NCBI RefSeq assembly: GCF_032854445.1
Contig: NC_088300.1
Span: forward strand, 12,991,191-13,055,190
Direction: 5' to 3'
Length of the DNA: 64,000 nucleotides
From: Liolophura sinensis
Lineage: Eukaryota; Mollusca; Polyplacophora; Chitonida; Chitonidae
The notes under the pieces are model-generated. The model was given only the letters and a program-made list of their open reading frames with translations, did not search any database and was not told the DNA's origin. Below, one piece after another: positions 2,035-60,960 of this stretch. Both the position numbers and the translations under genes were made by a program. The first letter of the stretch is position 1; every line of letters begins with the position of its first letter.

Positions 2035-2188
2035 CTATGAAAGACTGAAATAAAACAACAGAAAAAATTGTGAATGGCACAAATGTTTATAAAATTGCAG
2101 AGTGAGGCCGTGGGGCCTAAAACTTGAGAAATGATATCTGGAAGCCATGGCAGTATTTCTTTAAAATATGTAGCGAAAAAAGAAGTAT

Positions 2189-2737: not shown

Positions 2738-3149
2738 CAATAACGTAACAAAGATGTTTAAAAGTACCCTCATATACAGGCCTCTTTGAACACAGTACAC
2801 GTTTACATCACAACTAAAATATTTAGTTGTCGTCTTTTATACGGCATTTGCCGTGATGTCAGGCCTCCCGGGGAATAATGTATTGGTAAAACTGATCTTT
2901 GTTGGCAGTTTTCAGTTGACACATTGTGAGGCACATCTCACAGGCCAGTGTTCCATGCCTAACTCGTACAGAACGTTTATGTCGAGTCTAGTTTCATAAA
3001 ACAGAAAGCAAACGATCTAGTTATAGAACAGACATTCTAATAAAAGTCATCAACAAGATTGCACGTCTCGGGTCAAAAATTGCAATATATGCTGGTTGTT
3101 CGGAGTTGCTAAGAGTAAAGTAAAACATGGCGTGTCTTCCCCTGTATTG

Positions 3150-3640
3150 AAGTAAAAGAAAGCTAAAATATAAAGTACGGTTCCTCATACACACAACTGA
3201 AAACTATGTGTAAAATGCCGTTATTTATTTTAAGAGTTTTTTAAGAGCGTTGAGACGCATTCAAATATTTGAAAACTATGGTGGGCTTTATGAACCATAC
3301 AGACGGTATCTAGGAACTCGGACGTCACATAACCTTTTTTTCCTGATGTTCACCAGAAGAAAGAAACTTTTGGTAACATTATTTCAGTAGTCTTTCACTC
3401 ATGGAAAAAAAAGAGTCATTCAAACATTTAGTGTCGTGATAGAGTTGAAAAAACTCCCTAACCTCTGATAGTATCGTCCACAAAGCTCACCATAGAATTC
3501 AAATGTTTGAACGCATTTAACTCTTTGCATAAAAAGCTACAAATATAAACGAAAGTATATTTATGTGTAGCTTTAAGTGGTCTATTTAGTGATGCCTTCT
3601 TTGATTTTTAGAGGTCTTTTCCATTAAAGTTTTGCACTCT
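3150..3640. repeat. Foldback (long inverted-repeat) element, copy 1
   Basis: Left arm CATTCAAATATTTGAAAACT then ATGGTGGGCTTTATGAACC; right arm is its imperfect inverse (AAGCTCACCATAGAATTCAA, ATGTTTGAACGCATTT). The arms of about 150 bp enclose a short centre. A related copy lies in reverse at 20455-20945. Confidence 0.7.
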
Positions 3641-4188
3641 TCGCATTTAGTTTGCTGTAAATTGATAAATGTGCATTTCGACACGATGCAAGAGCGGATT
3701 TACCTATCATAAATATAGATTAGATTGATAACTCTCACAGATCGTAATTTGAGATGTTTATGCTGAGGCTGTCCAGGTGGACCCCAACGAAGAGAACAGC
3801 TCTGTCCTCTTCCGTCCACTTTCTAGTACACCTGCTGTGTGACTTTTGTAAACAGAGAATCTGGAAACATAAAACAAATTTGAGTAATGTAAGCCGAGTG
3901 CAAAATCATTTCCTTACGTCTCTGAAGTTTTCTGTTGTACATTTCTAGGTTGTGCAATGACGAATTGGATAAGACGACATTATTTCCCGTCCTAACACAC
4001 ACTGTAAAAAAAAATGAAAAGTATTTTAACCATATATATAGAATTCACCCCAGAATCTGGAATACTTGGGTTGTCTGTAAATCACACTAAAATTAGTTAC
4101 TACGAGATTGAGAAAGAAAAGTGTGATTTAGACTAGGATTTCGACCAAAGCAATCCCAAAGCCAGTTTTATGTGATATCCTGGAGCCA

Positions 4189-4323
4189 GTTGTTCAAAAG
4201 TGTAATAAAGTTAATCCATGCTTAAATGTTAGTGCCAGTATCATCCCAGTACAAAGTATATGACACTTTGGTCTGGACTAAAGTTAATTTTCGGGCTTAA
4301 GTCTTAATACACTTTTGAACAAC
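4189..4323. mobile_element. Small MITE-like element, 135 bp
   Basis: Perfect 15-bp terminal inverted repeats GTTGTTCAAAAGTGT (4189-4203) and ACACTTTTGAACAAC (4309-4323). No coding capacity. It lies between the linker and PH remnants of copy B. Confidence 0.72.
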
Positions 4324-4831
4324 AGTGCCCAGGACAAGCCATTTGGATGACACACGGTACAGTGTAATTACTTATTATAACGCCATGGGAATAGTTTGCC
4401 CCTGTTTTAGGTTAGGCAAATGCAGTATTTTTATATCTAGGATAATCATAACACAGCCAGCTTGCACTTTAACTAAGTAAAACTGGAAAATAAAAATATT
4501 AATCTGTAGATGTATGCCTGGCTGATAGTAAACCACTAACCTTGCCGAATTACAAGATCAACCTCGTCTGAATCTCCCAAACTCCTTTCACTGTGCCCTG
4601 AATGGAGGTACTTTGGTCTCTCAATGGTTAAATGATTGCTGATCTATGTAACATTGTTCTTAGCTTTGTCCGTTGTTTCATTCTTTAGCTCAGTGCCATC
4701 ACCATACGCATTTCTATCATCTTTGCCCGTGTGTTTTATTGTAGGTTCTTTGACCTCTACATTTCAGTCCTGCCTTTGCTCCTCTGTCGCTTCTACACTG
4801 TAGCTCCTTTCTCCTTTGAAGTGGTCATTAA

Positions 4832-6170
4832 TTAGTAACAAGTTTTTCGGAATTTCTTGAATTTGTTATCGACTGTAAAATTTAGAAGTGCAATTAAGGA
4901 ATCGAGAATGGCGTTTCGCATTTTAAAAGATAGTATGGATAACATAAACTCAAGTTGTAATATAACGCACTCTTCTGTACCCTTGGACCAAATAAGCAGT
5001 CTAGTTTCGTGATTACTTTTCACTGTGCCATTCGTACAATAACTGAGTTCAAATGGACTCTTGACCCTTGCTCGTTAATGCTAAACTAGACATGTCTTCT
5101 AACACAATGGAGTGTCTTGAGGTATTAGCATGTGCGTCGTGATTTACATCCTGAATTATCCACTTGTACGGATACAGGCCTCTGGCCACACACTGAATGA
5201 TCTCCTTTAAATTGGTGGTTACAAACGACTGGATGGTGTCATTTGGCCGAACAGTCGCTATTAAAGGTAAGCCGTTTTAACCTCTGGTGATGGCGTTACG
5301 TAAAGCTGGGACGTACATACGAGTGTCCATAGACGTTCTTAGTGCCACAATGTTTTCACCACACACCAAGTAAAGGAGTAGTTGATGTATAGTAGTCAAA
5401 AACTGAAACAGTGTTGCATTCCATTTCACCATCAGTGAAATCTATTTTATTTCTAAGATTTCCGGTGATCTCTGCGGTGACGCGTTCATAAAGGCCCTTG
5501 AGGAACTGTGCTTCTGTTTTTTGCCTGTAGAATGTTATCAAATTAACTTCCTGAGTTTCTGAGCTGACCTTTAGATGCCAGAAATTTTTAAACTCCTCCA
5601 GTTGTGGTCGTACAACTGCATTTATTTCTGCAGCCACATTCACATTCTCCAGATCGTCGAGACTGTATCCAGAAACCTTTGCTGTGAACACTTCTTGGAA
5701 CTCCTGGAAAAAGACACGATCGACGCCAGATCGAAGCAAATGGAATGAAATATAAAACCAACGTTACATCTGCCTTCTTTATGTGCACATACTACACGAA
5801 TGGGTAGGTCAGAACTTAAGTCAAATTGCACAAGAGAAACGTTAAAAATTCACTTTGCTATGTCCTTTTTTCATCCATAGAGTCTAGATCAAAAATATGA
5901 AAATCTTGGATATCGCTGATGAATTTGGTTGTAACTATTCCTTTGTCCTAAATAGACTGTGTGCAATGCGCTTAGTCGGCTTAATAAGGTCATAACAATA
6001 TCCCTTATCAAACGGAGCCGTATTGTAAGGTATACCTCAGCACAGTAAATCACAACTCTTTCGCCTTTCCAAGATTTGTTGTCATCATAAATTATCTCTT
6101 GTAGCACAGTGAGTTCCGTGGCCTCAGCGGTAACAACTTGGATCTCTACATCTTCAACGGAGCCATCCAA
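4832..6170 (-). pseudogene. Copy B condensation-like domain remnant
   Basis: Starts MDGSVEDVEIQVV, continues through LSALHTVYL (where copy A has RHQSLRTVY), then FIFHSICFDLAS (His codon 5745-5747), NVNVAAEINAVVRPQLE and ETRLLIW, and ends NAILDSLIALLNF. Each block has a counterpart in copy A. Several frameshifts separate the blocks. Confidence 0.78.
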
Positions 6171-6609
6171 AATAGACGAATCAATGATTGCAATAACCTT
6201 TTCTACTTAAGTTTCTTCTTGTAGTGTCACCAAATCCTTGCGAACCTGGTTGATCAGGATCATTGCTAACATAGAATCCAGACCAAATGTTGTGATCACT
6301 GTACTTTTGTTCATTTCATCTTCGTCTAATATTTGGCTAATAACTCGTCTGAGGTATTCAAACAGCGCGGACCTACGGTCAATAGAATTTAGCTGAATTT
6401 AGCAACTGCACGTCCAATTCACTGGATTTTTCCAGAGACAATTTATTATTTGCTCCTCGTTCAAGGAAAAAAGCCAGATTTTTTCAGCTGTTTAGCTATC
6501 TTGTCATTGGTTAGAGCCATTCCCAGTTGGAGAGGGCCCCATTAATGGACTGCCCACATAATCCTTTTGAGCGGCGGTAAAGAGCAAAGGTGTCCATGAA
6601 GGTGTTTCC

Positions 6610-6643
6610 AGCTCCATAGTTACTCTAGCTCCATAGTTACTCT
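6610..6643. repeat. 17-bp tandem duplication in copy B KR active site
   Basis: AGCTCCATAGTTACTCT twice in direct tandem. Reverse-complemented it covers the codons for the SNYGA active-site segment. Confidence 0.9.
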
Positions 6644-7047
6644 AGCCCGCATTACCGGAAATTGATAATGCATGACGAAATAGTTCAGGTCTAAGGATTC
6701 TGTAAGTTTGTGCAGGTTATAGGTTCCAATAATCTTCGGTTTGCACACTTTTGCGAAGCTTTCTGGTGACATTCGCATGAGAAAAGCATCCCTTAAGCCC
6801 TAGCACCGTTAAAAATTCCCTTCAAACTGAACGTGGGGAAATCATTGATTAAATCCGTTAGTGATAGACACTTTATCGCTTATATCAACTTGTATACAAA
6901 CAATATGAGCTCCAGACAGTTGTTTTAGGTCATCTAGTTTATTTTGCATGTCACCTGACTGTGGTTTTCGTGACACAAAAACAAGACCGCCCCTCTGCAT
7001 TGCAATTCAGCACACGGTTAACCACCCTAGTCCCTCAAGACCACCAA

Positions 7048-7330
7048 TAACGAGATATGATTTATTTATTTATTTGATTGGTGTTTTACGCCGTACTCAA
7101 GAATATTTCACTTATACCAGCATTATGGTGGGAGGAAACCGGGCACAGCCCGGGGGAAACCCACGACCATCCGCAGGTTGTTGAAGACCTTTCCACTTAC
7201 GACCGGAGAGGAAGCCAGCATTAGCTGGACTAGAACTCACAGCGACCGCATTGGTCAGAGACTCCTGGGTCATTACGCTGTGCTAGCGCGATAACCAACT
7301 GAGCCGCGGAGGCTCCTAACGAGATATGAT
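7048..7330 (-). mobile_element. V-SINE copy inside copy B KR, with 14-bp target-site duplication
   Basis: Minus-oriented: the A-rich AAATA tail is at the left and the tRNA-like head at the right. Body 7062-7316. The target-site duplication TAACGAGATATGAT is perfect (7048-7061 and 7317-7330). It interrupts the codons of the KR NADPH-binding motif. Confidence 0.92.
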
Positions 7331-8230
7331 GAATTTCGTTCAAAAAGCTTTCCTGATGCTGTCATCACACGTAAGTTCGGGGTGTTACTTTCAATAGAGC
7401 CATGGGAAAAGCTTCTAAAATGTTTATCGCTTAGAGAATTTAAAGTATCAAATAATCTGGGCTTTTCTCCTTTCAAATGGTTGATTACGTTCAGTAATGT
7501 TTGACTTAATTGAGATGTAGAGAGCAATTACTTTAGAGTAATTGTATGGATTTTAACACTTGTTTGGATTATTTCATATTTATCCAAAGTTGACATTCCG
7601 TGAAATCCATCCATTGCAATGATATCTCGTATTTGATCATATTCAAGCAATGTCTCTAACATTGGTTGATCGATATCAGTAAGAAGTACCACGCTACAAC
7701 AGATTTCTAAATTTTCAAGATTCGTCTTAAGGAAAACATCAACTTCCACTGCCCCGTGTGACATATACATTACCTGTACCTATACCTGCTGCAGGAGTTG
7801 TACACCATCGCGAACCTTTCGGGATAGATACGTTTCGTAGAAATTTTGCTCCTTTTGGATTTGATTTTTTGGTACATCTGTCAAAACGCCATCTGTATAC
7901 GGCACAGCTTCTTCTCAACAGAATTCGAAGTCACAGGAGTACAGCTGACAAAGAGATTTTAGCATACACCAAATGTCCCTATTTTTTTCCATTGATGGCA
8001 AAACCACCACGTTCCCATGGGAGAAAATATTATAAAGATGCGCAGCAAGCACGGACTTAAGTCCGATTTCAAGGCAAACATTACGCTTGTTTTTGTCGTG
8101 GCTCATCGGAAAGCCTGGTAAAAAAGGACGGTTTGCCTCAAGTTTCGACTCCAGTAAAGCGAGGTAACAAAATCTGCATCCTTGGCAATTGCTCCAGAAA
8201 CTGAGGAGTATATTTTAGTTTCTTAGGCAC

Positions 8231-8935
8231 CTAAGATAATATTATATAATTATCCAGGGGATGCATTTGTCGACTGTGAAATGCAGTTTCCACTCGCAGA
8301 GGAATTATAATTATCTTTTTATCAGAGAATTCTGGAGTTTCAAGAAAAGCTTGAAATGCTGCAATGCACTCTTGTTCACCAGATACTGCACAAGACAATG
8401 GGCTGTAGTACACGGCTATTTCGAGTCGGCCATCAAAATGTCGACACACTCTCTCTACCTCAGCAACTTCACAGTTCATAATAATCAGCATTCGACCACC
8501 TTTAACCTCAGAAAAAAGACACGTGCGCCAGAAAATGATCTTTACAGCGTCCTGTAAGTTAATGCGTCAGGAGGCGAAAGCAGCGGCAACTTATCCCATA
8601 GACTGTCCAACAATAATATATGCTTTCCACACACCAAACAATCCAACTTAACAGGCAAACAAAAGGAAAGGGCCAATCACTGGATCATTAATGCTCTCCT
8701 GCAGTTCAAATTCTTTTTCTAGGCAGATATCTGACAGTGTTTGAACAATTGCATCTATGTCACGAGCACCCTTTAGAAATTGTTCTTGTTTCAAAAGCTG
8801 CAGACACATGCCATTCCACATTGTTCCCATCCCACAAAAAACAAAAGTAATGTATAGATCTCTCCTAGATACACCCTCTGAAGACAGACTGACTGAGTTT
8901 TCTGTAAAGTGCACATTTATGTATGTCATCTAATT
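8231..8935 (-). pseudogene. Copy B acyltransferase remnant
   Basis: Open pieces match copy A AT along their length: GMGT, DPVIGPFLLFA, IVGQSMG, INLQDAVKII, FDGRLEIAVYYSP and TAFHSRQM. In-frame stops follow GQSMG and FAS. The Ser-flanking residue is Gln, as in copy A. The homology ends at about 8935 and nothing KS-like precedes it. Confidence 0.8.
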
Positions 8936-10619: not shown

Positions 10620-11580
10620 TCTGTCCACATTTACTTGCAAGAGAATTATACTCATTGTAAAACTTCAGAAACCCGGAGTGATGGTGTTTCATGGAATAAC
10701 CTTAACATACTAGTTTTTGCAGTAATAACTTGTGACGTTGATTGAAATCTAACAAATGCTACAAGGCGAGATATATTTACACCATATACAGGACTTTTCG
10801 GTATATTGCTGTACAAGCAAGGAGAATTCGAAATTGAATCTATCCCTCTTGTTTTTCTGATAAGATGTACCATCTGGAGAGTCTGTGGTTTCCTTTAAAT
10901 CCAGCGAAGGTGGATAAATATCTTTCACAGCCTTTTCTATATACGGATTACTTACAGTCAGCAGATTATAAATATACCGTTTAGTGAATGAGAAAGATGG
11001 GTCAGGTGAGCATTACTCCTTAATAGTTTCTGCATGTTGTCGTATTCATATGAGAACAAAAAAGTATAGATCGGCCAAAAAGGGAGGGGGGAACAATTTG
11101 TAACCATCGGAATACCTATAGACCGTTGATATATGGTTTCCCCAAATTTCACATAGATGTTATTAAGGAGAAATTCAAGCAACTCAATGAGCATGGAAAC
11201 ATCCCATGAATGGTAACCCTTGTATGTGGTGGAACTGAAGAAGGCTTTGTTGCCTCTGACGTTAATATAGTAGTGACCGGTTTTATTAAACACCGAAACA
11301 AATACTGATGAGATTTTATCTGTTAAATCCATGTGAGGAATCGTAGTATAAAGAGTGAAGAAATCCAAAGTAGATATGTCGGTATGTGTGCTAGAGCGTC
11401 TAGTTCTTCAGTAAGACATTTAGAGTTTTTAGTTATCAGCATACATTTGACGCCTAATTTTTTGCAATTGCACAACAGTACTTGTTCCAAAACTGAAGAC
11501 ATGACGCATCAACATATTGTACATTCTCTGATTTACAGAAACTAGTCTCTAAATCTTTCTTGAAACAGATGATCTTCTTA
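10620..11580 (-). pseudogene. Reverse transcriptase relic of a retroelement (possibly Penelope-like)
   Basis: The longest open piece (11368-10958) reads DFFTLYTTIPHMDL, then IYQRSIGIPMVTNCSPL and FLFSYEYDNMQKLL, which fit the TLYTxIP and GIPMGTNCxPL blocks of a widespread animal reverse transcriptase family. Downstream on the same strand the pieces continue with DIYPPSLDLKETT, NIPKSPVYGVNISRLVAFVR and related blocks in shifted frames. The Y-x-D-D motif is lost. Assignment to the Penelope-like group is from memory of the motif order only. Confidence 0.65.
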
Positions 11581-26639: not shown

Positions 26640-27309
26640 TCAATAGAGCATAAAGTTGTCCGACATAAAGAATTCTGATGGCAAATCACTGGTGTCTGAA
26701 TCCATAGTTTCCTTCAGGCCGTTCATCCAATTTCTCGCCTGGTTTTTCTCGCTGGTCTTGAAGTAAAACCGTCTGGACCGAGTCTTTACGATCAGGACAA
26801 AGGCCCCTGTGGAAACACCAAGAACACCTTGAGAATGTTTTCCGTTTACCTCCATAGAATTTTAAAGAAATCTTTCCATTGGAATAGTAAACGCTACAAG
26901 AACACAAAAGAACAAGTAAGGTAAAGCCTTAAAAATTTTCCGGATGGCAAGCTCTGTGCGTGTCGTTGTGCCGTGTTCTGAGGCCGGTACTTGTTGGCTA
27001 TCACCGGTAAACATTAATCAAAACTAAAATGCGTTGTCGAAGATGGCATTGTGGGGGAAGCTTTCAAAATATAAATGCTAACTGTGAACCTTTCTTAGTC
27101 GTTGGACAGAAAGTTTAAATTACTATCCTATGTAACTTACCATTCAAAGAGTTTAAGCTGATCTGCATAACTGCCTTTAACGGTAGTGCCTTTTCGAGGC
27201 AATCTTTGGATGTTCCCCCATCTTAGCAACGACTTCTGGTCAGATTTGTCTACTTTGAGATAGACCTGGTGTTCCCATCCCTGTTGAGTTGCTTTTGTAA
27301 ACAAAGAAC
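26640..27309 (-). CDS. PKS copy A, 3' exons 7-9 encoding a C-terminal PH domain
   Basis: Three exons: 27309-27141, 26893-26850 and 26806-26640 (stop TGA). Joined in phase they give about 125 residues starting GSLFTKATQQGWEHQVYL and containing GGAFVLIVKTRSRRFYF, then NQARNWMNGL. This follows the PH pattern: first strand G-x-L-x-x-K, central strands, and a final helix with the near-invariant Trp. The protein ends SDNFMLY. PH domains bind phosphoinositides or proteins, so membrane recruitment of the synthase is a reasonable inference. The last intron is only 43 nt but has GT-AG ends and restores the frame. The same end (SDNFMLY) occurs in copy B. Confidence 0.78.
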
Positions 27310-30300
27310 CTGCAACACCATATTTAATCCAAACAATTCAGATGCAAGCAAGATTAGTATACTTTATAAACACAACATATGACATATTAACATGACGTAA
27401 TTTGCGTTAAATAGGGGAACGATATGGCTGACAAATTGCAGATCATTCATTCTTACGTTAAATAGGGGAACGATATGGCTGACAAATGGCCGGTTATTCA
27501 TTCTTACGTTAAATAGGGGAACGATATGGCTGACATATGGCCGGTTATTCATTCTTACGTTAAATAGGGGAACGATATGGCTGACATATGGCCGGTTATT
27601 CATTCTTACGTTAAATAGGGGAACGATATGGCTGACATATGGCCGGTTATTCATTCTTACGTTAAATAGGGGAACGATATGGCTGACATATGGCCGGTTA
27701 TTCATTCTTACGTTAAATAGGGTAACCATATGGCTGACATATGGCCGGTTATTCATTCTTACGTTAAATAGGGGAACGATATGGCTGACATATGGCCGGT
27801 TATTCATTCTTACGTTAAATAGGGGAACGATATGGCTGACATATGGCCGGTTATTCATTCTTACGTTAAATAGGGTAACCATATGGCTGACATATGGCCG
27901 GTTATTCATTCTTACGTTAAATAGGAATAAGTTACATGTATTTAGTGGTTTACAGGTTTTTCACATCAACATTTACACCCCTTATATTTTCTTGAAGATA
28001 TTAAGTTAAAGTGATCGTATAACGTTCAAAATTTATATTTAGTGACAAAAAAACACGAGTTTAATCCTAACATGTATGATTACAGCGCATGCTGGTTATA
28101 AAATTATGTGAAAATATAGAACAGATGGTAATGACTTACCGTCAAATATCATGGATCCGGTTTTATTAATCTTGTCATCGTCAAACTTAAAACGCCACGC
28201 TGGAGTCTTCATTTGTGATCCTGAAGATGTTTTGCTGTCTTCGTTGGTGTTGTTTATTGTCTTGCTGTTTTTCACTCCGTTTTCTTTGTGTGCGTTATTA
28301 ATTCCATTTTTAACGTTATCTGTCACTTGATTGTTTTTATTGATATTTTTGGCAATTTCATCCTCGTTCGACACGTCCTCCAACTTGCTAGATGTTTGCG
28401 TATCATGCACTGGTTTTGTTTTTTCTGCAGCATAATGTAAGGATTGTGCGGTCACTGATAGTAAATTGTCCGGTATCTCCTCAATAAGAGAGCTCGACTC
28501 CGTGACCATGAAATCCAGCAGAGCAAACAAAGATTCCAAAATGGCATTACCATCATAAGAACTCACAAGATTAGGTAAATAATCAAGCCGTAAAGTATGT
28601 CTTGCCTCATCTTTGCTTGAAAACAAAAGTAGTCTTGTTTCATAGGCAATCTTCAGAGGTCCGTGACTTTTGAATTTAAACTCAAACTCTTCCAGCCCTT
28701 TACCAGACGTCTCAAGCCCGCTTAGGTCTGCATACACCACAGCATGGCGACTGAGATTTGCTGTAACCTCCTCACTGCACTTTTCCGTGATAAATTTGAA
28801 GGGAAACATGCCATTTTCGACACATTCTGAGATTGTTTTTGAATTGGAGACGACGAAAGACTGAATTGTGTCCTTCGGAGCAAAACTTGCAAGCAAAGGA
28901 ATTCCGTTTACACACCTACTTATGACATTTTTCAGTGCTGGACTGTGTACTCGTGTGTCATGGGATGTCCTCACGGCCAAAGTATTTTCACCACTGGCTA
29001 AATGAAGCAGAAGCTGATAGGCGCTGATCACGAACTGAAATAGAGTTACCTTCCACAAATGCATTTGTTTCTCAATGGCATTTTGTAAGTTATCCGGAAT
29101 GTCCCTTGTCACAGTTTCGTGATAGCCACACAAGATTTCCGGTTGAACGGTTTGTTTGGAAAATGAAATAAGTGGAATATCCGCTTTGCCCCTGAACTGT
29201 AACTCCCAAAATACCTGCAATGGTGTAAGTTTGGGCATCAACGTTGCTCTCATTTCGGCAGCCACATTGATATGCCTGGGAGCAGGTAAATCAAGGCCAT
29301 TCGACTTGGCCAGAGCGACTTCTTTGAAATCAATAAAAAAAAGGTCGATAGCTCTGAGGTCAAAACAAATGGGATGAAAAAGAAAACCCAGTTTGTAATT
29401 TTCCTTTTTATGTGTGCAAATTATGCGAACTGGTAATTCGGCAGACAAGTCAAAACGATCTCTTGATAGATCAAAAATTTCTTTTTCAAGGTTGTCTGGG
29501 TTACTGGGTTCAAGTTCGATAATATTAAGATCTGACAGATCTGATAATATCACAGGTTCGACGCCATTTTCAGTTTTGGTATATACTGTCCGCAAGGACT
29601 GGTGCCTTCCTATGAGCAAAATCAGCAAATCCTTCATCCATTCGATAGGGGCTGTAATTGTGAAGTGTATTTCCGCCCCAAACACAAGGTCTTTGCTGCC
29701 TCCCCATGCGCTGTGCAAATCATAAGCCATGGTTTCAAACACTGACATCTTGGAACCATTTCCGTCCTCCATGAAAGCTTCGAAGTCGTCTTTACCATCG
29801 GCCTCTGACATGATTTCAGAGTCAAGATACATAACGAGAGTTTCCACTGAGGAGTCCTCCAGCAACTTGACCAGAGACATTCGCACTGCGAGGTCTTTCT
29901 TCATTTGATTTACCATTGTCATTGCCAACATAGAATCCAAGCCGAGGGATACCACAGATGTTTTCAGCGTTACTTCATCGACGTCCACGTTTAATACCTG
30001 AGCAATTACTTCCTTTATATAGTCAAAGAGGTCTTTAAACCTTTCTTCTGGGGATTTAAGCTTTAGAAGCTCCAAGTCTATGTGACGCATCGCGGTTTCT
30101 TCCTCGTCCAGTTCTCTACCTCCAGTTAAAATAATTGGTCGTATGTCTGGTGACAAGTACAAAAATCGATACTTATCAACCCAGTCGAAATCCATAAAAC
30201 ATATCTGTGGAGTATTCGTTAATAAAGTGTGGATTAGACAATTTCTGATTTGCTCCTCGTTTAGTGACACAAACCCAAATTTTGCCAGCTGTTGAGCAAT

Positions 30301-33300
30301 CTGCTCATTATTGAGGGCCATTCCCAACTCTAACGGACCCCAATTAATGGACTGTCCTGATAAGCCTTGGGAACGGCGATAGTGAGCAAAGGTGTCCATG
30401 AAAGAATTTCCAGCGCCATAGTTACTCTGACCAGGATTTCCAGCAATCGAGACGATAGAAGAATGCATGACAAAGTAATCAAGATGGAGGGATTTAGTGA
30501 GTTCGTGCAGGTTGTACGTTCCCAAAATCTTGGGCATGCAAACTCTGTCGAAGTTTTCCTTCTGCATCCGCATTAGGAAGGCGTCATCTAAGATACCCGC
30601 TCCTTGGAATATCCCTCTCAGGGGAAACTTCTTGAAATTCTTATGAAGCACATTAAGGGCCTTCGCGAGAGATACCTGATCCGATATATCAGCCTGTAGG
30701 CAAACGATTTTAACCCCAGTGTTTTTCTTTAGATCTTTGATTTTGGACTGCATTTCCCCTGAAGGTGGCTTCCTGGAAACAGTTGCCACGAGTCCACCAC
30801 CCATCTCAGCGATCAAGCAAACGGTCAGCCACCCAAGGCCTCCTAGACCACCAACAACAAGGTACGAGGCATTTGGTCTGAACAGATTTTCTGGCTTCAC
30901 CAATAATTTCACAGCGTGGTTGTTTTGAAGGTTTAGTAAGCCTTTAGAAAAATTACGGAAATGATTTTTTCCAAGCCCTTCAAATATGCGTCTGATCTTT
31001 TTTTTCTTCTTACTAAGAAAATGTACAATTTTGGGTAGAATTTTTCTCATGTTCGAAAACTTGTATACTTGCTTAGGACTAACACGAACGGTTTCCAATG
31101 CACCATCATTGCCAAAACAACCCTGGGAAGTCGTGTCCCCTTTACAACCTTTAACTGATATGATACCTTTCAGATGGGGATTACTTAGCATTTTCCCGAT
31201 TACAGCATCGTCTAAATCAGCTAACAGTAGGAGGTTACTAGGTCCAGTTATATTTATGTGGTGAGCATGGGTTTTGGGACATAGAGACAACCGCTTAAGG
31301 CCCCAAAGAGACAGAATGTCTTGAACAAGTTTTCCTTCATTATGATAGGATGACTCTTCCGTTATTATAATCGTATGTCGCCGACGACTTAGGTTTTCGT
31401 GTACTTTCCACAGTAAGGCTAAAAATGTCAATATTCCTGTATGGTAGCCGGGAACAGCAGATATAGGTATGACGCACTGTCGAGGCACAAACACCTCGTT
31501 GCTAACTTCCAACGGAAGGCAAACTACGACAGGCTCCTTACTGTCAGCAGAATGACCAACCGCCTCCAATGTGATCATTTTGGAACTTTCTTCATTTGTG
31601 TCCGACCACACCTCCATTTCACTAGCCTTTGTAACGGGAAAAAATGTCTCTTCGTGAAGAAGAATTGTTTCCAGGGATACTTTTACATTTTCGGGATCAA
31701 GCTCGTCTTTGATATCCGAATATTGAAGATAAACTTCGCTTTGTGGGCTGCCGTGCGTATCGGCGTTTACTAAACTCACGCTATCGCAGCCATTCCAGTT
31801 CTGAAGAACACTGGGTACGGATGAGGTAACTTCTCTGGAAAACGCAACGGTCGATTCATGAACGACGCCCTTTGATATCATTATTTCCTTTCCAACAGAC
31901 GATAGTTGGTTTGAAACTAAATCAGCGAGTATCGACATGGTCCCACTGGAATCATCGGAAATATCGATTAACTGCACAAATGGATATAAGTCTTCCTTAA
32001 CCATACAGCGCACCATTCCCCACAGCTGAGAGCCAAATATGTTGATGTTAAGTTCTTCGGGACATTCAAATGTGGACGTTTGTGTTGATCGTGTTACGAT
32101 GGCAACAGGTAGCGTGTAGTCTTCTTCCGAGAGGAATACCAGTAATTGACGCAGATTGTCACAACTTTTGCAAATGTAATTAAATATGTCTTTAGCTGAA
32201 AGACCACCAACAGTAGATCCTTGGGCAAAAACAACTGCACTTATTCCGCTGCTTTCGTCTTTTGACTTTAATGCCTGGATGCTCTTTTTCACTTCTTCAA
32301 TGTCAAATTTATCGACTGCCATATGATATGGAACACAACTAACATTACTCTCAGTGTTGATTATCGCATTTGCCAGACTCTGGTCTTCACTGATCACAAC
32401 AATATTTCGCCTTATGTCAGACTCGATAGGTTCAGCGACTGGAGTCGGTCTCCACATGAGAGAATATCCAATTCTGTCTACCTCATCGCTGTTTCTCCCA
32501 ACCACTTTCACACACATGTCTTTAACCTCTGCGATTAGAGTCCCATTTGTAGTCATTAATACCATGTTATAGTAGAACCTCGAACGCGACATAGAGACTA
32601 CTTTTGCGTAGGACAGCATCTTTTTCTCCAGGGACTGAAACATGGATACAGATCCCAAACCAGCTGGTAAGACTTGTTCCATCTTTATCTCCTCCATTGT
32701 TTTAGAGTCACCCACAATAGTGCAGAGAGCCTGAGTCATTGCATCAAGAACACTCGGGTGAAAGTGAGTACGGTACATCTGAGAGTTTATCATTTCCGAT
32801 GTTTCTATAGTAGACAGGCATTCCCTTTGGTTTGCGTAAGAATCTGACACTATTGTCAATCCATCTCCATATCGAAATCTCTAAAATCCAACATGTCGTA
32901 GATTTCAGAGCTTTGTTTCTTAATGTGACATCTATGTTTTATTTTACTTAACAGTGGTGCTAACTGCGACCCCTTGTGCTCTCTTTTCTCAATATGTCCA
33001 TGAGCAAAGATGGTTTTCTGTCTATAAACGACGTACGTTAATCTAGTACTCGTTACGTGTTTCACTTGACAGGCCAAAAAGTAATCCTTACCTTTCTGGA
33101 CACTCATGGGTTGAATGTAATGGGCACTGATTGTCAGAGTTTGAGGGGGTATTCGCAAAACCTCGTACCCTACAGCTAGTGCCACTTCCGTGTAAAACGC
33201 TCCCGGAATAATAATGGTTCCATTAACAACGTGTTGAAAAATGAATGGTGTTTCTCGCTCATTGATGCCAATTTTGAAGGTAGGAATGTCTCCCGCCATT

Positions 33301-36300
33301 CTAACGATGAAGGGGTGATCATAAACAGCTCTAGTTGTGCCTTCACGATGTCGTTTGGAGTTGTCAGGGCTCGTACAATAATTTTGCTCTTCTGAACTGA
33401 TACCTTGGTTCATCGGTCAGCTTTCCCCTAACTTTAGGAACAACGTTTTCCCAGTTCGGATTCATGCCAAGGGAGTACAATCGACAGAGCGAATTAAGCA
33501 GACACTTCATATCAGACCCTTTTTCAACTGAGGGTTATAACTTTGACATCCCCTTCATCAAAAATATCATCTAGGGTGAGCTCGTAGGACAGGCTTGGGG
33601 GCCGATTTCAATAAATACTGTGCGATCGTTCTCATCTTGGCTTTCCTTAACGGCCTGGTAGAACAATACTGATTGTCGTAGGTTCTTGGCCCAGTATTCT
33701 GGCGTCACAAAATCTCCTTCCTCGGCAAGTTTACCGGACACGGTTGAGAAGATCTGGATTTCTTCTTCACATGGTCTTATTTCAGCAAGTCTTTCAATTA
33801 AGGGATTTATCAAGGTCTCCATTCGCTGACTATGAAATGCAGTTGTGACGTTTAAAGGGAATCACAGATATTTTCTCGTCTGATTCTTTATGGTTTTCTT
33901 CCAGGGTTTTTCTTATATTATCTACACAATTTTCATCACCAGATACTGAACAAGCGTTTGGGCTGTAATAAACAGCAATGTTAACACGGCCGTCAAATTG
34001 TGCACACAACTCCTCTACTCCAACACTGAACAGTTTAAAATGACCAACATATGACCACCGGTGACTTGACACAAAAGCTCTGTTCTGTGAAAAATGACCT
34101 TGACAGCGTCTTCCAGGTTAATACGCCCGGAGGCAAACGCAGCGGCCACTTCGCCTACCGACTGACCTAAAACAGCATTCGGTTTGACGCCCCAGTATTT
34201 CCACACAGAAAACAAACCAACCTGACTGGCGAATAAAAGCAAGGGTCCAACCATTGGGTCGAACAGTTTATCTTGACATTGGAGCTCTTCCTCTACAGAA
34301 ATATTCGAAAATGTTCCTAATATTTTATCAATGCTACGAATAGCATTCAGAAAACTTTCTTCCTCTTTCATGAGCTGTTGAAACATCCCCTCCCAAGATG
34401 TCCCCATTCCACCAAACACGAATACAATATTTATACGTTTTCTTTCAACCTCATCCAGACTTAGTGCCTTTAGCTTCTGTGAAAGATTTTCGTCATCTCT
34501 AACGGACACGGCTGTTCGATGAGGATAATGATCCCGTCTGCAGGTTGACGTGTAGGACAAGATTCGCGGATTTATTTTGGACTCTGACGCTATTTTCATC
34601 ATGTGTTTAACGTTTGGCGTAGTGCCGCTTTTGAATGTCCAGATATTGCAATAATCGGATGTCCGCTGATTTCCCCGTTGCTCTCTGTCGTAACATTTGA
34701 TTCTTGAATAATAACTGCGTGGGCATTGGAACCTCCAAATCCAAAAGAGTTAACACAAGCTATTCTTCTGTTGTCTGGCAATGTGTCCCAAGGATAGCAT
34801 TGGTCTGGAACTTTGAAGTTGTACTTGTCAAAGTCAATCAGAGGATTGGGGCTGGAAAAGTGAAGGGATGGTACAATAGTCGCGTTCTTCATCATGAGCA
34901 GAACTTTTATTAATCCCGCTATTCCTGCTGCGGATTCCAGATGGCCGTCTTTACCGATCCAATAAATCGGCGAGACCCATCTGTGCCGAAGAAAGTTCCT
35001 AGACTGTTAGCTTCGATAGGATCGCCGACAGGCGTACCAGTTCCTGGAAAGAAAAGCATATTTATACAAAATGCTTAGATACGAAAACACGTTGACATCT
35101 TGTTTCTCGTTCTTCCAGATAAATGGTGTGTAACAATTTGTGTCACCTATTCTATAATTAGCTAATATTTAATATGGTCTTGTTAAAAACAAAAATAACG
35201 CCTTTCATACGTGGAATTAAACCAAAAACATGTATATCAGACAGTATGATATCAGTAACGGTAAGATATCCTGGAAATGACCTACAGCTAGCGCATTGGT
35301 GCCATCAATAATCTGTTGGTATCCATGCAAAAGTTTGGGCGTATTAAGATGTGATCATGCTTATGCGTTGGTGAAATTTGAAACAGCTTACAGTAGCAAA
35401 TTTAGCTGTAAACTATATATTTAGTTAATCCCAGGTGATTTAAATATTCCAAATAGCCAATGTCCATGTGCCATGCGAATTCAGTACTGTGCATGTTTTA
35501 TTCCATGGTGGTGGAAAGTTCCTTCCGGGAGAAATCTGGGCATATGGCGAGAATGAAACTTCGGAACATTGCCAGAAACCTAAGAACAGCCTTCTGGTAA
35601 GGACGCGGACGAACTATGTCACTCACCGTGTGCTTCAATGTACTGTACACTACAAGGGTCAATACCATGGCGTCCATAGGTCTCTTTCAGAAGGGCCAGT
35701 TGTTGTTGTCCAGATGGTGCAGTTATCGGAGACGCCATTCGACCGTCCTGGTTAGAGGCCGTCTTTACGATGGCCCAAATTTTGTCCCCATTCGCCCTGG
35801 CCTGAAGGAAAAGATAACTCGTCCTAAGCTCTTCGGTTAAAGCAGTTGTCATGTTGGTGTAAATGTTTTTTAGACGTGTACATCCAAATATTGATAAGAC
35901 CAAACCATATCACAAATTAATGGCCGGCGTCATATTAGTGAAATATTTCTAAGTACGGCGTAAAACACCAGTCAAATAAGTAAATAAATAAATATAATAT
36001 CGACCGATTTACATGTTTGTATTTGTTTGGCAAGAAATTGGACTTTTAAACACGATAATGGGTAAGAGTTTCTGAAGTGTGGAGGAATAAAAAAATTAGA
36101 ATACTTTCAATACGACAATAAAAGAAAACAGAAATGTATGCATCTCACCGGCTGGGTGGTTTCAGGGGAGACAATTCTGATAGTGCTCTCAATTGTTTTT
36201 ATGGAAAATTGACTTGAATTCTTTCCCATCCAAATGAACGTCATGCCATAGAATATTCTGTCAGGCCTTTAATGACGGACTGGCCTTCTATCGCCAGCAA

Positions 36301-39300
36301 ATAGTGCTTTGTATCAGCATTCAAACCACGAATTTATTGCTAATCATTTGGGAGGAGGAAGCAAATGTGCAGGATTAATCCAAATGAGTATGGCGTCAAC
36401 TGACTCAGTGAAACAAATCAAGATACAGTCTCTGTTCTTATTGCTGAATATCAGTCATACATCATTATGGCTGAGATTCATCCCTATATCGGTGAAAATC
36501 TATATCCAAATACTGCCTCCAGGTTTTTTCACTCAATCAACAAAGGCTTGCTTTTTTGGATTATTAAAGGTGGAGAAAACATGAAAATACTGTGAACTTC
36601 AGATGTCATTGTAAGAATGTGAAAAGTTATTTGTAAATGAAGTCTTCGATGTATTTTCCGATTTTTCTTTACAGAAAAAAGGACATATGAAAATACTTTT
36701 TGTAATGTGAGTATTTTGGACCACCTCTTATCGTCTTGGTTAGAGCGCTAGCGCAGCGTCATGACCCTATAGAGTCTCTCACCAATGTGGTCGCTGTGAG
36801 TTCAAGTCCAGCTCATGCTTTCTTCCTCTCCGGCCGTAAGTGGGAAGGTCTGCCAGCAACCTGCGGATGCTTATGGGTTTCCCCCGGGCTCTGCCCGGTT
36901 TCCACCTACCATAATGCTGCCCAACGTCGTATAAGTGAAATATTCTTGAGTACGGCGTAAAACACCAATCAAATAAATAAATAAATCTTATCGTCTTATA
37001 CGATACGAAATATCGTCTTTACCCTAAATGTCCTAAATTGAAGATCTCGAACAGTGTCTCTTCCTCAACGCTGATTCTGGTCTCTCGTTAAATGAACTTA
37101 CTATATACTTATTACTGTTTGCAAATGATGTTATTTTGCCCTCTCAATCGTTACAGGGCCTTCAACATTGTCGGAATGCTTTAAAAGATTACTATATGTA
37201 TAATAAATGGGGACTAAATATGAAGTCAGTGGTAAGTAAGTAAATACGAAAAAAATATTTAAGGATCATATTTAGTAATACCTTTACTCAACTTCGTCTG
37301 AAATTTGCATCACTTTTATGCTTTCTTCCCCTTTAACAGTATCTTGCCATTCGTAAATGAATGCACCTTAAGAGCCCAATAGGATTAGCGAAAGTAAACT
37401 TTCACAGTTTGAGAAGTCTGTGATGACCCACCCCAACCTGTCTACTCACCCACACGCCCCGCTGCTGTGCGGAAAAGCGTAAATATCGTCTCACATAATG
37501 TTATATTAACTAATCACAAGTCAAGTTTGACTTGATCTGAAGGCATTAGGGTCTTGTGAAGTGCATAAAGTGTTACATTTGTAGAAGCATGTCAAAAGGA
37601 AAAATAATCTTGTTGAAGAGAATACTAAAGCCTTTAAACACAACCTGTGCTTTTTTATGTCAAGCGAATTTATAATTTCTGTAATGATATATAGCATTGT
37701 TATTACTACTTACGTCAGCCAATTTTTTTAGGATAACTATCCCGCTACCCTCTCCTCGGGCATATCCGTCAGCTTCGGCTGAGAATGCCTTGGACGAGCC
37801 AGTAGGGGAGACCATCCTGGCTTTACTCAGTGGGATCATAATCGACGGCATCAGAACGCAGTTAACGCCGCCACAAATTGCCATATCACAGTCACCTGTA
37901 GTGACAAAAACAAATGGACTACTTACTTGCTATAACGTAAGTCGGCATCAATCTGTCCTTGATGCTAGAAACAGTGTTTGATTCAGGAGATTTGGTTTGC
38001 GAACGTCGTTAGTTCTCAGAGATATTTGAAAGCTGTACGGCATTTGTTTATTTCTAAAACTCTTATGTTAAAGAAGTTCTAACGGAGATTTTTGGCAAAC
38101 ACCCATAGTAGCTAACCAAATCACATTATCTGAATTTATCAAGAATAGCTCCAGTTATTGTAAATATCAGATTCGTACCTGTGGTAATTATTCTGTTAAA
38201 ATGATAAAGTTTGAAAGCTATAATGCGACCTTTTATATAAATTTCTAAAACTTTATAACCGATGCTGAAAATTTGTGAAAGTTAATTATTTGGGCTATTC
38301 TGAAATATAGCAAAAACGTCGAATGGAATTTAATAATATCCGATATAGCATTTATAAGCAACCCTCGTTCATTACTCATGTCTCCTGCCAGGCGTAATTA
38401 AGACTTATCAGATAATGGATGATAACCTCTGGCATGATAGAAAGTTTTGCATTGATTCTCGTTGTTTTTGTGCTAATTACTTCTCCTCTTTAGTTTCGTT
38501 GTTATGTAACATGCATGCGTGTCACAATTGATTTGTGCAGTTATTAGCCAAATCTGTTAAATATTACATACACTGGCTTTTCTTACCCGTTTGCAAAGCT
38601 TGTGAGGCGAGATGTATGGCAATCAGAGCAGAGGAACAGGCTGTGTCGACAGCCAGAGCGGGCCCAAGCAGGTTGAAGACGTAAGACACGCGAGCCGCTG
38701 CGATGCTTGCCGAGCCACCCGTCAACGTGTAATTGTCGGCCTGGTCCATATCCGACGCTAGAATGTCCGTGTAGTCACTGTTCATCACGCCTGAAAAGCA
38801 ACACCAGTTCGTGATTCTTTTTTCACATAAGTTCCGTGTGCCTAACAACAGCATAGAGGGTAAAACCAGAGCAGAGGACAGTGTGATAACCTGCAAACGG
38901 CCCTCGCGATTTCTCTCTTGAACTTAAAGCGATTACTGTTATGCTTTTATATGAGACTTCATTCTTTCTTGTTCAATCGCAGCTGCTACACAGATTTTAT
39001 AGAGAAAGTGAATTAGCCTGTGGAAATTTATGACCATGTTAAAAAACCCAGGAAACTTGTGTTTTTTTTATGAGGGGATGCGGTAATCTGTGTGAACTAT
39101 AAATACTGCTGAGTGGATTCATCCGAGAGCACTCTGTAAGAGACTGGTGTTTTAAGGAAAAATACTCCCTTTGCATGAGTTGCGTCCCATGTTTCAGTTC
39201 ATATTGAGACCTCTGGATGCGTAGAAATAACCAAAAAGAGCAATTTTCAAACAGCTTTCAGCAGAAATGACCAAAGAGCTATGACAGTATAAAGAGAAAT

Positions 39301-41943
39301 AAATTCGAACGAATTTATGTGAAGAGAAGCAGTCAGCAGACTGGCTGTTTGCAATAAGCATAGTTCTAAAAAAATACTTGTAAAACACCAACGATGACAT
39401 ACTGACTAAAGCCAGGTGAGTTTAAGTTTTTATCTTATCCCATAGTGCCGACATATCTTTTGCTCTGTACTAAACCTCCTTACCGAGTTAGGAATCAGAT
39501 TTATCAGCAGGAACATTTGTTATATTAGATTCCCAGAATAATTACAAATATGTCAACTTTGTTTTAAGGAAATAAAACCCTAAACAATCGTGGTATTGTC
39601 TCTCAAAAATTTGCAGATAATTGTGGCAAACTCGATTAATTGTTGTATTTATTAGATTGGTGTTTTACACCGTACTCAAGAATATTTCACTTATGGTGGG
39701 AGGAAACCTGGCAGAGCCCAGGGGAAACCCATATGCTGCAGACCTTCCCAGCCAGCATGAGCTGAACTTGAACTGAGCAACCGCATTCGTGTGAGGCTCC
39801 AGGGTCATTGCTCCATGCTGGCGTGCTACCCGCTCGGCCATGGAGGCCCCCGACTGGATTTAGAGAGCGTTTGACAGCTGATTAATTACTCACCAATGTA
39901 AACACCTGTATTGGATCCGGATATAGTATTCCGGGGAATCCCGCCGTTCTCCAGAGCCATGAATGTTGACTCGAGAATAAATCTCTGCTGGGGGTCCATC
40001 TTCGAAGCTTCGATGTCATTTACGTCGAAAAGTCGATTATCAAATTTGTCGTGGCTAAAAAGAATAAGAGGGATTCATTTATTTCATTCTTTAAATAGAA
40101 AATTCTATATTTTATATTTAAATTCCTAAAAAAATTTTCTTTTTAATACTGAGTAAAATGGAGTTTGAGATATAATGGTAGACAAGGGAACTAATACTTC
40201 CGCCGAAATTGAGCCCTTGTCAGGTGAGGTTATGGGATAGAACCCAGCATTCGTTTATCCCACTTCAGCTTTTTGTCAGGAGGGCTGTTATGTATCTGGC
40301 TACAGAAGGTGATTTCCTTCACCCATAAATGAAAAAGTACCACTTGATAAACCACTGCTCAAATAATTACATAAACAAATCTACATGACACTAGTAAACG
40401 TAGAGCCGTACAGAGCTGTGCATTTTTACTCATCACTGTTATTACTCAAGGCAAACTGGAAGTTAGAACCTATTTACTATCATAATTTCTTAATTATCAC
40501 ACTCTTGCTATTACACTAGATTTATGCACCCGCAACTTCAGCTCTGCATTCTGGTCAACATCAAGAGTACGGTAGGCCTAAATAGGCACGCTTTATTGAC
40601 GAGCGCGTGTTTACTTAATCTACAATATATTTCCTGTCACGTGAAAGGATTGCGTCTGTGCATATCTAGCCGCACCTGTGTGGTTCAACTGATCTGACTA
40701 TAAACTAGCATAACAAGAAGTGGGCCCTACAGGGCCACGCTCAAACTTAGCAGAAATCAGACGCAACTTTCGATCATGTGGCCTGGGGATTCCTGTGCAA
40801 TACGTTGTCAGATGTCGGGCTAAAAATACGTAGGTGGCTTGCGCAGCAGATCATAAATATTCAGGTCACCCAACAACAGACACTGTAAATACACTCTCAG
40901 ATCGGAACGCTTTTGTGGATATCTCGAACAGTTTGCATTAACATAAGGAACATGATAACTTGTACATACTACTTGATGAAGCGATTCGGTTAGAACTGTT
41001 AGTGGTACAATTTTACAAGCTCGGTCGTTTGCGAAGATGTTCGTCCTTCGGTGAGTTTCGTGTGCACAATTAGTCTTTTCCTGTGTGGCAAGACCTGCGA
41101 GCACATGTCAAGTGACATTACAGGAGATTGCGCGGCTCTGTCGAATAGAAACAGGGCCCGAGATGGTGGCCCTGGCAGTGAAAACACATGGATGGATTTA
41201 CTGTATACATGGGACTGAACCTACAAAAGAAAGACGCAGAAATCCTCAGATAGGTTTGATCACGTCGTTGAGATATAAATGTAACAGGTCAGTGCTTATT
41301 ATAATGCTTTTCCGAAACTTTCTGGCAGGAGACAAGTTTTTTCTGCGTCCAACACCATCGATTTCATCCGCGGAGTGAGAGAATCCCAGGATTAGGTGAC
41401 GACGGGGGAAAGGTTTTGTATCCGAAGACCACGGGTGTTCTTGACTTTCCCTGAAATGTCACTAATCAGCACACGTGTGGCTCAGCACTGCTTGGCATAA
41501 GTTCATGAGACATGGACTTAGGTACGGCTAGACAAAGCCAAGACCTAACAAATCAAATACCCCCAGTCTCTACAAGTGAACTGAATTTTGGGATTTTATG
41601 GATAATTGTTAACGCTTGCATATTTATACAATTTTTGCATCTCGTATTTTGTCTCTGTCTACTGCTTCATTTTGTGTATGATCTGAGAGAATGCACACGT
41701 ATATCTATTGTCGGAAATAAAGGTTTCCACTTACTCCTTGACAATTCCCACTTTCCTGACGTATGTCTTGCCGGGGGCGTCCGGATCTGGGTCGTAAAAG
41801 GCGTCCACATTCCATCGATCCCTTGGAACCTCGATCACATGGTTTTCCCCATTCTTCAGCACATTCCAGAATTCGTCCAGATTTGGAGCCCCGGGAAAAC
41901 GGCACCCCACCCCTACTATCGCTATGGCGTTTGAATCATCCAT
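26640..41943 (-). CDS. Animal FAS-like polyketide synthase with C-terminal condensation-like and PH domains (copy A, whole gene)
   Basis: Multidomain type I synthase expected to build a polyketide or branched fatty acyl chain from malonyl-type units in the cytosol. Model by eye, coding exons on the minus strand: 41943-41735, 40054-39894, 38790-38587, 37895-37714, 35801-35627, 35043-28140, 27309-27141, 26893-26850, 26806-26640. All junctions are GT-AG and the phases match. Domain order is KS, AT, DH, pseudo-KR/ER-like, KR, ACP, condensation-like (C), low-complexity linker, PH; about 2,700 residues. Key motifs seen: DTACSS and EAHGTGT (KS), GQSVGE (AT), HxxxGxxxxP and DxxxQ (DH), GGLGGLG and YxxxN (KR), GLDSM (ACP). 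There is no thioesterase. About eight small indels break the frame between 34.94 and 32.87 kb, so the gene is either intact with consensus errors or a young pseudogene. The start is the only ATG just ahead of the KS core, in a good context (AGCATGG). A decayed paralogue lies downstream. Confidence 0.88.
27405..27925. repeat. 51-bp minisatellite, about 10 units, in PKS intron 7
   Basis: Unit ACGTTAAATAGGGGAACGAT then ATGGCTGACATATGGCCGGT. Two units carry GGTAACCATATGG instead and are spaced three units apart, hinting at a three-unit higher-order repeat. Lies between the large PKS exon and the first PH exon. Confidence 0.92.
28140..35043 (-). CDS. PKS copy A, 6.9-kb exon 6: KS end, AT, DH, pseudo-KR/ER-like, KR, ACP, C domain
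   Basis: Begins GTGTPVGDPIEANS (KS end). AT follows at about 34.5-33.6 kb, DH at 33.4-32.7, a pseudo-KR/ER-like stretch at 32.5-31.05, KR at 31.05-30.2, ACP at 30.05-29.8, the condensation-like domain at 29.75-28.4, then an N/K/S-rich linker. An unbroken frame of about 1,587 residues covers 32859-28096. Within it: second DH residue in LDAMTQ near residue 39, KR GGLGGLG near 667, KR Tyr near 814 with Asn four on, ACP Ser near 976 (codon 29932-29934), C-domain RHQSLRT near 1084 and HPICFDL near 1162. Upstream, frame shifts occur near 34.94, 34.03, 33.85, 33.60, 33.575, 33.54, 33.38 and 32.88 kb. The frame ends at a GTAAGT donor; the few residues beyond it are intron. Confidence 0.88.
35627..35801 (-). 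CDS. PKS copy A, coding exon 5 (KS, first catalytic His)
   Basis: Acceptor CCTTCAG, donor GTGAGT. The translation includes SNQDGRMASPITAPSGQQQ and ends at IEAHG; the catalytic His of HGTGT is the last complete residue before the splice. Longer open frames read on the opposite strand here are shadows. Confidence 0.9.
35919..35995 (+). mobile_element. V-SINE 3' fragment in PKS intron
   Basis: GGCCGGCGTCATATTAGTG then AGTACGGCGTAAAACACC and the AAATA tail; 5' truncated. Lies about 120 bp ahead of PKS exon 5. Confidence 0.8.
36726..36997 (+). mobile_element. V-SINE in PKS intron with 12-bp target-site duplication
   Basis: Body 36738-36985, slightly short at the head. Target-site duplication TCTTATCGTCTT at 36726-36737 and 36986-36997. 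Antisense to the PKS. Confidence 0.9.
37040..37246 (+). pseudogene. LINE-type reverse transcriptase fragment in PKS intron
   Basis: One frame reads LLLFANDVILPSQSLQGLQH, then YYMYNKWGLNMKS: the F-A-D-D box (here FAND), followed by the GLQ...Y...W.L spacing of non-LTR reverse transcriptases. Only about 65 residues remain. Antisense to the PKS. Confidence 0.65.
37714..37895 (-). CDS. PKS copy A, coding exon 4 (KS)
   Basis: Acceptor CACTACAG, donor GTAAGT, ending in phase 0. The translation has CGGVN and the KS signature FSAEADGYARGEGSGIVIL. Confidence 0.9.
38587..38790 (-). CDS. PKS copy A, coding exon 3 (KS active-site cysteine)
   Basis: Carries the KS nucleophile motif DTACSSAL; the Cys codon is at 38636-38638. 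Acceptor CTTTTCAG and donor GTAAGA are clear. The sequence around the Cys (LGPALAVDTACSSALIAIHL) is typical of animal FAS/PKS ketosynthases and looks catalytically complete. Confidence 0.92.
38841..38920 (+). repeat. Dispersed repeat R, 5' fragment in PKS intron
   Basis: CAGCATAGAGGGTAAAACCA then GACAGTGTGATAACCTGC, about 50 bp beyond PKS exon 3. Confidence 0.6.
39648..39852 (-). mobile_element. V-SINE in PKS intron, close to exon 2
   Basis: GATTGGTGTTTTACACCGTA to CGGCCATGGAGGCCCC; diverged and internally deleted. Same strand as the PKS, about 40 bp from the exon 2 donor. Confidence 0.85.
39894..40054 (-). CDS. PKS copy A, coding exon 2 (KS)
   Basis: Preceded by a TTTTTAG acceptor and followed by a GTGAGT donor. 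The translation holds the KS core signature MDPQQRFILE and the following ALENGGIP. Its phase joins exon 1 and exon 3 without a break. A V-SINE lies about 40 bp beyond its donor. Confidence 0.9.
41735..41943 (-). CDS. PKS copy A, coding exon 1 (KS N-terminus)
   Basis: Encodes the start of the ketosynthase: MDDSNAIAIVGVGCRFPGAP, then the DEFW and DRW signatures typical of KS N-termini. It ends in phase 2 at a GTAAGT donor. An acceptor-like TTCAG lies just ahead of the ATG, which implies an upstream non-coding exon. Reading further upstream in frame would need a TTG start, so ATG at 41943 is preferred. Confidence 0.88.
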
Positions 41944-60699: not shown

Positions 60700-60960
60700 G
60701 GACAGCAGTATCCCCGAGATCTGGTCCCTTTGCATTTTCTTCAATGTTATTGCGTGCTAAATGTGACGACAGCACAATATTTTGAGTAATTCTAGACCGG
60801 TGACGTCTAATAAATTAGTGTATCTTTACCGACATGAAATTCTGCTTGTGAGCCCTGGCAGGGACGCATAAGATGTTATTACTTAATCATTTACCTGAAC
60901 AGTTGGAATGAAACCCTGATAGAGGTAAACAGACAAAAGTCTGGGTTTTACTAGTCATTT
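60700..60960 (-). repeat. Dispersed repeat R, reverse copy leading into the 48-bp minisatellite
   Basis: ACTGGTGGACAGCAGTATCC, AATTCTAGACCGGTGACG and CCTGAACAGTTGGAATGAAA are reverse-complement R. Its 5' end would fall exactly where the minisatellite starts. Confidence 0.68.

Follow-up and report, generated by a model that had tools for sequence, protein, structure and literature searches.

A chiton type I polyketide synthase gene with a condensation domain and a PH-like tail

Type I polyketide synthases (PKSs) with C-terminal condensation domains have already been published from molluscs: the text of Lin 2024 (PMC10764717) describes a mollusc PKS clade that has forms with and without a condensation domain and whose few introns are N-terminal, and it samples canonical PKSs from Polyplacophora. 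The chiton gene analysed here resembles that clade in its PKS-type KS, its condensation domain and its few N-terminal introns, and differs in adding a PH-like tail; the main text of that study makes no mention of a PH domain or of pleckstrin. Table 2 of PMC4604110 holds four amphioxus PKSs and one acorn-worm PKS with condensation domains, which likewise stand behind the KR or ACP; in contrast to the chiton gene, all five carry TE and/or AMP-binding, and PH is entered for none of the five. Fungal LovB is described as an iterative PKS with a non-functional ER and a condensation domain at its end, in which it is similar, but its methyltransferase is active, its enoyl reduction is left to a separate enzyme, LovC, and PH is not among its stated domains (PMC7870829). 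The sacoglossan AFPK EcPKS1 is also a multidomain animal synthase with an inactive ER and without TE; it differs in being FAS-like, where the chiton KS is PKS-like, and neither a condensation domain nor PH is among its stated domains (PMC7280274). How animal synthases that lack a thioesterase release their products is an open question, and for the majority of TE-less AFPKs the off-loading mechanism is stated as unknown (Lin 2024, PMC10764717).

No paper describing a PKS with paired condensation and PH domains was found in the literature searched, a scope that took in few subscription papers, and among the matches listed in a search on chitons and polyketide synthase the phrase 'polyketide synthase' occurred in none. 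The original prediction, that no animal PKS with this pairing had been described, stands in the literature searched for the PH domain and fails for the condensation domain, which appears in the text of PMC10764717 and in Table 2 of PMC4604110. The new element is the added PH-like tail; the condensation domain is already known in molluscs.

The window, i.e. the whole stretch of 64,000 nucleotides that was analysed, lies on an 82,489,547-base contig (C6) of the Liolophura sinensis genome (609,464,459 bases in 632 contigs). The species was named L. japonica at first and corrected afterwards to L. sinensis (PMC12441733). The window holds a type I polyketide synthase gene (hereafter the main gene) on the minus strand. 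Its presumed start lies at 41943 and its stop at 26640; the coding sequence is divided among five KS exons, a single big exon (35043-28140) and three small ones:

41735-41943, minus: exon 1, presumed start (first in-frame ATG) and KS N-terminus (MDDSNAIAIVGVGCRFPGA...); PF00109, reading frame, donor GGA/GTAAGT
39894-40054, minus: exon 2, KS (...SKMDPQQRFILE...); PF00109, splice sites
38587-38800, minus: exon 3, with the active-site Cys of the KS (DTACSSA) and an approximate 5' edge; PF00109, donor
37714-37895, minus: exon 4, KS; PF00109, splice sites
35627-35801, minus: exon 5, C-terminal half of the KS (...IEAHG); open frame, splice sites
28140-35043, minus: exon 6 (big), with KS end, AT, DH, an unassigned region, KR, ACP and condensation domain; Pfam, open frame, paralogues
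27141-27309, minus: PH exon 1 (GSLFTKATQQGWEHQVYLKV...), behind a phase-1 intron; GT/AG splice sites
26850-26893, minus: PH exon 2, 44 nt; splice sites
26640-26806, minus: PH exon 3, last strands, Trp helix and stop codon, behind an intron of 43 nt; splice sites

The interval first proposed for the gene, 26640-35043, takes in the last four exons only, because the KS exons (41943-35627) lie outside it. Five introns fall within the KS and further ones only before and inside the PH-like region, so that introns are few and mostly N-terminal; aligning the big exon to the large exons of paralogues B and C leaves no space for another. The KS end and the AT were recognised by comparison with the paralogues. 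Contamination was considered and rejected, since the gene has spliceosomal introns and its three paralogues and a broken copy all lie on one 82-Mb contig. Two other parts of the window drew attention: an open frame at 10958-11407 (minus) resembles a reverse-transcriptase fragment (GIPMVTNCSPL), which we take to be perhaps Penelope-like, and at 60912-61587 (plus) long open frames occupy all three plus-strand frames, apparently arising from a tandem repeat.

Paralogues A (C6:1376500-1400000) and B (C6:1403500-1427000) are arranged tail to tail, and of the two only A yielded PH exons: two PH-like exons lie downstream of its condensation domain at C6:1399199-1399918, while a search of the 1399800-1427000 stretch at E<=0.1 found none for B. 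Paralogue C has two open PH-like exons downstream of its condensation domain (C6:1548858-1550382). The large exon of C is one open frame of 2198 codons with no break, in which Pfam recognises AT, DH, KR, ACP and Condensation (73 bits). Paralogue A has a frame break in the AT and a further one of 1 nt in its first PH-like exon, which measures 182 nt against 183 nt in C; two of the three PH-bearing genes (main and A) thus carry frame breaks. In all three paralogues the PF00109 match to one KS exon spans a TAA that may belong to an intron. By eye, a 597-codon open frame before paralogue C (C6:1528117-1529907, plus) resembles a Patched/RND membrane protein. The window itself contains the remains of a further copy:

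1834-8863, minus: broken tandem copy, AT, KR, ACP and condensation pieces with stops and frame breaks; profile matches

This copy retains a PH last exon (1834-2001) and a remnant of the first PH exon; a KS match in it was not among the matches listed.

The original prediction called the synthase FAS-like. Among the best 60 of 71 matches, however, the main-gene KS scores 404 bits against CurL and 333 against LovB, compared with up to 264 against mammalian FAS, and its top match is a protein with two KS domains (612 bits over two stretches). The KS thus lies nearer to PKSs than to animal FAS, judged from scores alone, which leaves the FAS-like label unsupported; an identity as FAS or AFPK was rejected on the same scores. 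The L. sinensis genome has FAS-like KS exons of its own on another contig (C1, 96,433,062 bases), with a TE exon nearby. As read from its sequence, the main gene fits a canonical animal type I PKS of the PKS clade of Lin 2024, not an AFPK. Its domain order is KS-AT-DH-KR-ACP-condensation, the AT/DH frame being broken in the window copy and one open frame in paralogue C.

As predicted, the reading frame continues unbroken past the ACP into a condensation-like domain: a 1594-codon open frame (28096-32880, minus) covers part of the DH, the KR, the ACP and the condensation domain. Pfam matches KR at 1e-54, PP-binding at 7.9e-13 and Condensation at 4.3e-19 and also finds DH, and the KR, ACP and one DH motif are present. 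The domains are placed as follows:

30889-32487, minus: region between DH and KR, no Pfam match above cut-off; in the position of the structural KR and enoyl reductase of FAS/PKS
30331-30870, minus: KR, with GGLGGLG, Ser and Tyr motifs; PF08659 1e-54
29827-30024, minus: ACP (GLDSM); PF00550 7.9e-13
28660-29640, minus: condensation domain (Pfam core); PF00668 69 bits against a cut-off of 30.6, 4zxh E 2.2e-7
29356-29376, minus: HPICFDL at the HHxxxDG place, second His lost; alignment with paralogues

The region between DH and KR does not contain a GGVG motif, and a PDB profile search matched no ER there, so that 'pseudo-ER' would be a guess from position. In paralogue C and in the long frame of the main gene alike, Pfam matched neither a methyltransferase nor a zinc-type ER at E<=1, and an NCBIfam search gave, among the matches listed, only PKS, SDR and NRPS matches below cut-off.

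The Condensation profile match spans residues 1081-1407 of the long frame and lies well above its cut-off. In all four genes, ACP and condensation domain share one exon, in that order. Searched alone against the PDB, the main-gene domain finds an NRPS condensation domain (4zxh); a profile built from the four genes finds NRPS condensation domains from E 1.9e-17, MokA at 1.3e-6 and LovB at 6.8e-6, i.e. it scores the NRPS domains better than the LovB CON domain. Folded alone, the main-gene domain gave no usable model (pLDDT 33.8), and when bacterial and archaeal genomes were scanned for its relatives, 23 pattern stretches matched, none of which was confirmed. The active site is degenerate, as had been predicted: the HHxxxDG site reads HPICFDL in the main gene, HPITFDQ in B, HPISFDQ in C and HHVSFDQ in A, so that the second His is replaced by Pro in three of the four genes and kept in A. 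Nei-Gojobori counts for this domain give dN/dS values of 0.24 for A-B (dS 1.61), 0.33 for A-C (dS 0.71) and 0.28 for B-C (dS 1.42), by which it is under purifying selection among the three paralogues. Comparisons with the main gene (A, 0.39; B, 0.49; C, no value) are not relied upon, because dS is at least 1.65.

These observations bear on whether the domain might be catalytically active as an acyltransferase and pass the chain to an amine or alcohol in solution, the second His being dispensable or the activity confined to A. Purifying selection among A, B and C would fit such a role, as would the absence of a TE match from the main long frame and from paralogue C, the single TE match listed for the genome lying near the FAS gene on C1. 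In the text of a review, mutation of the second His is not always fatal and an HQxxxDM domain works (PMC11546977), which makes catalysis by HPxxxD possible, and the HHVSFDQ kept in paralogue A makes a catalytic domain possible there. However, the main gene, B and C have not only Pro at the second His but also Leu or Gln for the Gly, and the site in the broken tandem copy begins HS. We regard release by an active domain as a tentative reading, on the unlikely side.

The three small exons have GT/AG sites and encode a PH-like tail, in agreement with the PH module that had been proposed; the profile match is weaker than that of the condensation domain. Joined, the main-gene tail matches Pfam PH over profile positions 5-104 of 105 with E 0.0055 and 17.7 bits, below the PF00169 cut-off of 25.1, and the last exon of A alone reaches 15.1 bits. 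PH was not among the Pfam matches at E<=1 for the joined tail of paralogue C, which gave only FKBP_C at 0.13. The arrangement itself recurs: PH-like exons follow the condensation domain in three of the four genes (main, A and C), in all three after an intron of phase 1 that sits at an equivalent position, with donor G/GTAAG and acceptor AG/GTT, and in part in the broken tandem copy, so the predicted joint architecture is borne out beyond the window gene. In the main gene, the intron between the condensation and PH exons holds a 51-bp minisatellite (27405-27925; 10.2 copies, 97%), and by eye the downstream stretches of the paralogues look repeat-rich too.

When the 1606 window ORFs of at least 25 residues were ranked by an HMM made from A and C only, the last PH exons of the main gene and of the broken copy took the top two places, at E 0.00035 and E 0.1, a test that is not fully independent because the A and C exons, found via reading frames and weak matches, were chosen partly by likeness to the main tail. 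Against the same profile, 12 of 20000 shuffles scored higher than the whole main tail. A second profile was built from PH domains of seven other genes of the L. sinensis genome (12 loci fetched, eight read and the near-duplicate L021 dropped); in these controls, which separate the tails only moderately, shuffles did as well against it in 2 of 7000 cases for the main tail, 5 of 7000 for C and 31 of 7000 for A. HHalign of a four-sequence tail profile against this seven-gene profile gave P 8.9e-5 and probability 59.7 over 32 columns, with probabilities of 41.5 for A and C together, 22.5 for the main tail alone and 4.9 for C alone. Against the PDB, the four-sequence profile returned 13 rows, all weak (best E 0.044): three PH, eight ADRM1/Rpn13 Pru and two interleukin receptor; the main tail alone returned one unrelated weak row. 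The Pru domain of ADRM1/Rpn13 has a PH-like fold.

It could be argued that the tail is not a PH domain at all, or that it belongs to another transcript. Its score lies under the Pfam cut-off, the 43-nt intron is short, some shuffles score equally well, and the link between the condensation and PH exons comes from genomic sequence and not from RNA. Against this, the intron phase and place are equal in three genes, the A and C profile picks both window last exons (subject to the dependence noted above), and 11 of the 13 PDB rows, weak as they are, are PH or Pru. We give this alternative little credence. That the tail is a coding unit shared by these genes has good support; PH is the name that suits it best, though not a proven one.

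The original prediction also had the synthase recruited to membranes by its PH domain and handing its acyl chain to a partner. In favour of recruitment to phosphoinositide membranes stand the tail, present in three of four genes, and the often lipid-like nature of what such enzymes make. The signature K-Xn-(K/R)-X-R in beta1-beta2 is known from phosphoinositide-binding PH domains. By eye, this signature is absent from beta1-beta2 of the tails (WEHQVYL in the main gene, WEDVFLR in A, WEDALLR in C), which leaves membrane recruitment unsupported, apart from what the name of the fold suggests. As to the partner, Condensation was listed above cut-off at four places in the genome, all of them PKS genes, and the fifth listed match was the broken window copy at a sub-cut-off 20.0 bits. 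The possibility of an NRPS partner encoded in this genome was set aside, since these listed matches are confined to the PKS genes and the broken copy; AMP-binding gave 14 matches in the genome. We consider recruitment to phosphoinositide membranes with hand-over to a partner improbable.

Whether the window copy itself encodes a working enzyme depends on one part of the big exon, which was aligned to paralogue B, where the large exon stays open over 2214 codons:

32882-34948, minus: stretch with nine frame changes relative to paralogue B; alignment, every change called as 1-2 nt

The nine changes span 2.07 kb in the KS end, AT and DH, and the 4.7 kb that follow are one open frame. The alignment to paralogue B called no nonsense codons in the stretch. 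By eye, several of the breaks sit at short runs of a single base, which fits sequencing error. The change at 34948, in contrast, has a two-residue gap alongside and by eye is a deletion of 7 nt within the KS, at KTNIGH, which fits a real mutation. Were the breaks spread evenly over 6.8 kb, the chance that all nine would fall in that part is about 2e-5 by simple arithmetic, and such clustering points either to an error in the local consensus or to selection acting on the second half. The genome search listed the window and four places at 66-68% identity, namely the broken copy and the paralogues, and no allelic contig with unbroken frames.

One reading of these data is that the window copy is a recent pseudogene that makes no working enzyme, so that only its relatives matter. 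Nine frame changes in 2.07 kb, one of them apparently a 7-nt deletion, an adjoining tandem copy that is plainly dead and the lack of a second allele contig among the matches listed all speak for this. However, no nonsense codon was called in the broken stretch and the following 1594-codon frame has none, and the clustering of the breaks favours one or other of the explanations just given for it; the corresponding published assembly is described as 14X HiFi (PMC11068029). We judge the two sides to be evenly poised. Since all breaks lie on one side of 32882, it might also be proposed that the KS/AT/DH half died while the DH end, KR, ACP, condensation and PH-like domains survive as a protein of their own that works in trans with the paralogues. 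A promoter, start and transcript for such a protein are not in evidence, and AT and DH catalytic motifs remain in the broken pieces, so that we find this proposal very improbable. The window copy is either recently broken or locally a bad consensus or mis-assembly in the KS end, AT and DH; probably it is damaged, and a related gene outside the window seems more intact.

Taking the family together, we favour, with some confidence, a chiton canonical type I PKS of the form KS-AT-DH-(unassigned)-KR-ACP to which a condensation domain of NRPS type and a PH-like domain have been added. It would work iteratively, its condensation domain holding or gating the chain and its PH-like tail docking a partner. 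Here, KS and AT would extend the chain in successive rounds while KR and DH reduce it partly. Enoyl reduction is not expected, a working ER not having been seen, and the ACP would come to carry an unsaturated or beta-hydroxy chain. Because its second His is mostly lost, the condensation domain would chiefly hold or gate this ACP-bound chain for release instead of forming a peptide bond, and the PH-like tail would serve to dock a scaffold or a partner protein. The domain order can be read from the genes themselves; catalysis, release and docking are what we infer from it.

A bolder form of this proposal is that the two terminal domains make up a jointly inherited release-and-docking module, in which the decayed condensation domain presents the ACP-bound chain to an enzyme bound by the PH-like domain. 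No description of such a way of ending polyketide synthesis was found for animals in the literature searched, and we hold this stronger version to be rather doubtful. As far as gene structure tells, the condensation and PH-like domains are inherited together in most members of this small gene family.

The family thus urges caution against reading a condensation domain of this kind as peptide-forming. With a condensation and PH-like pair that travels together, and a condensation active site that is mostly decayed yet appears to be under selection, it would offer a testable case of product release by a PKS.
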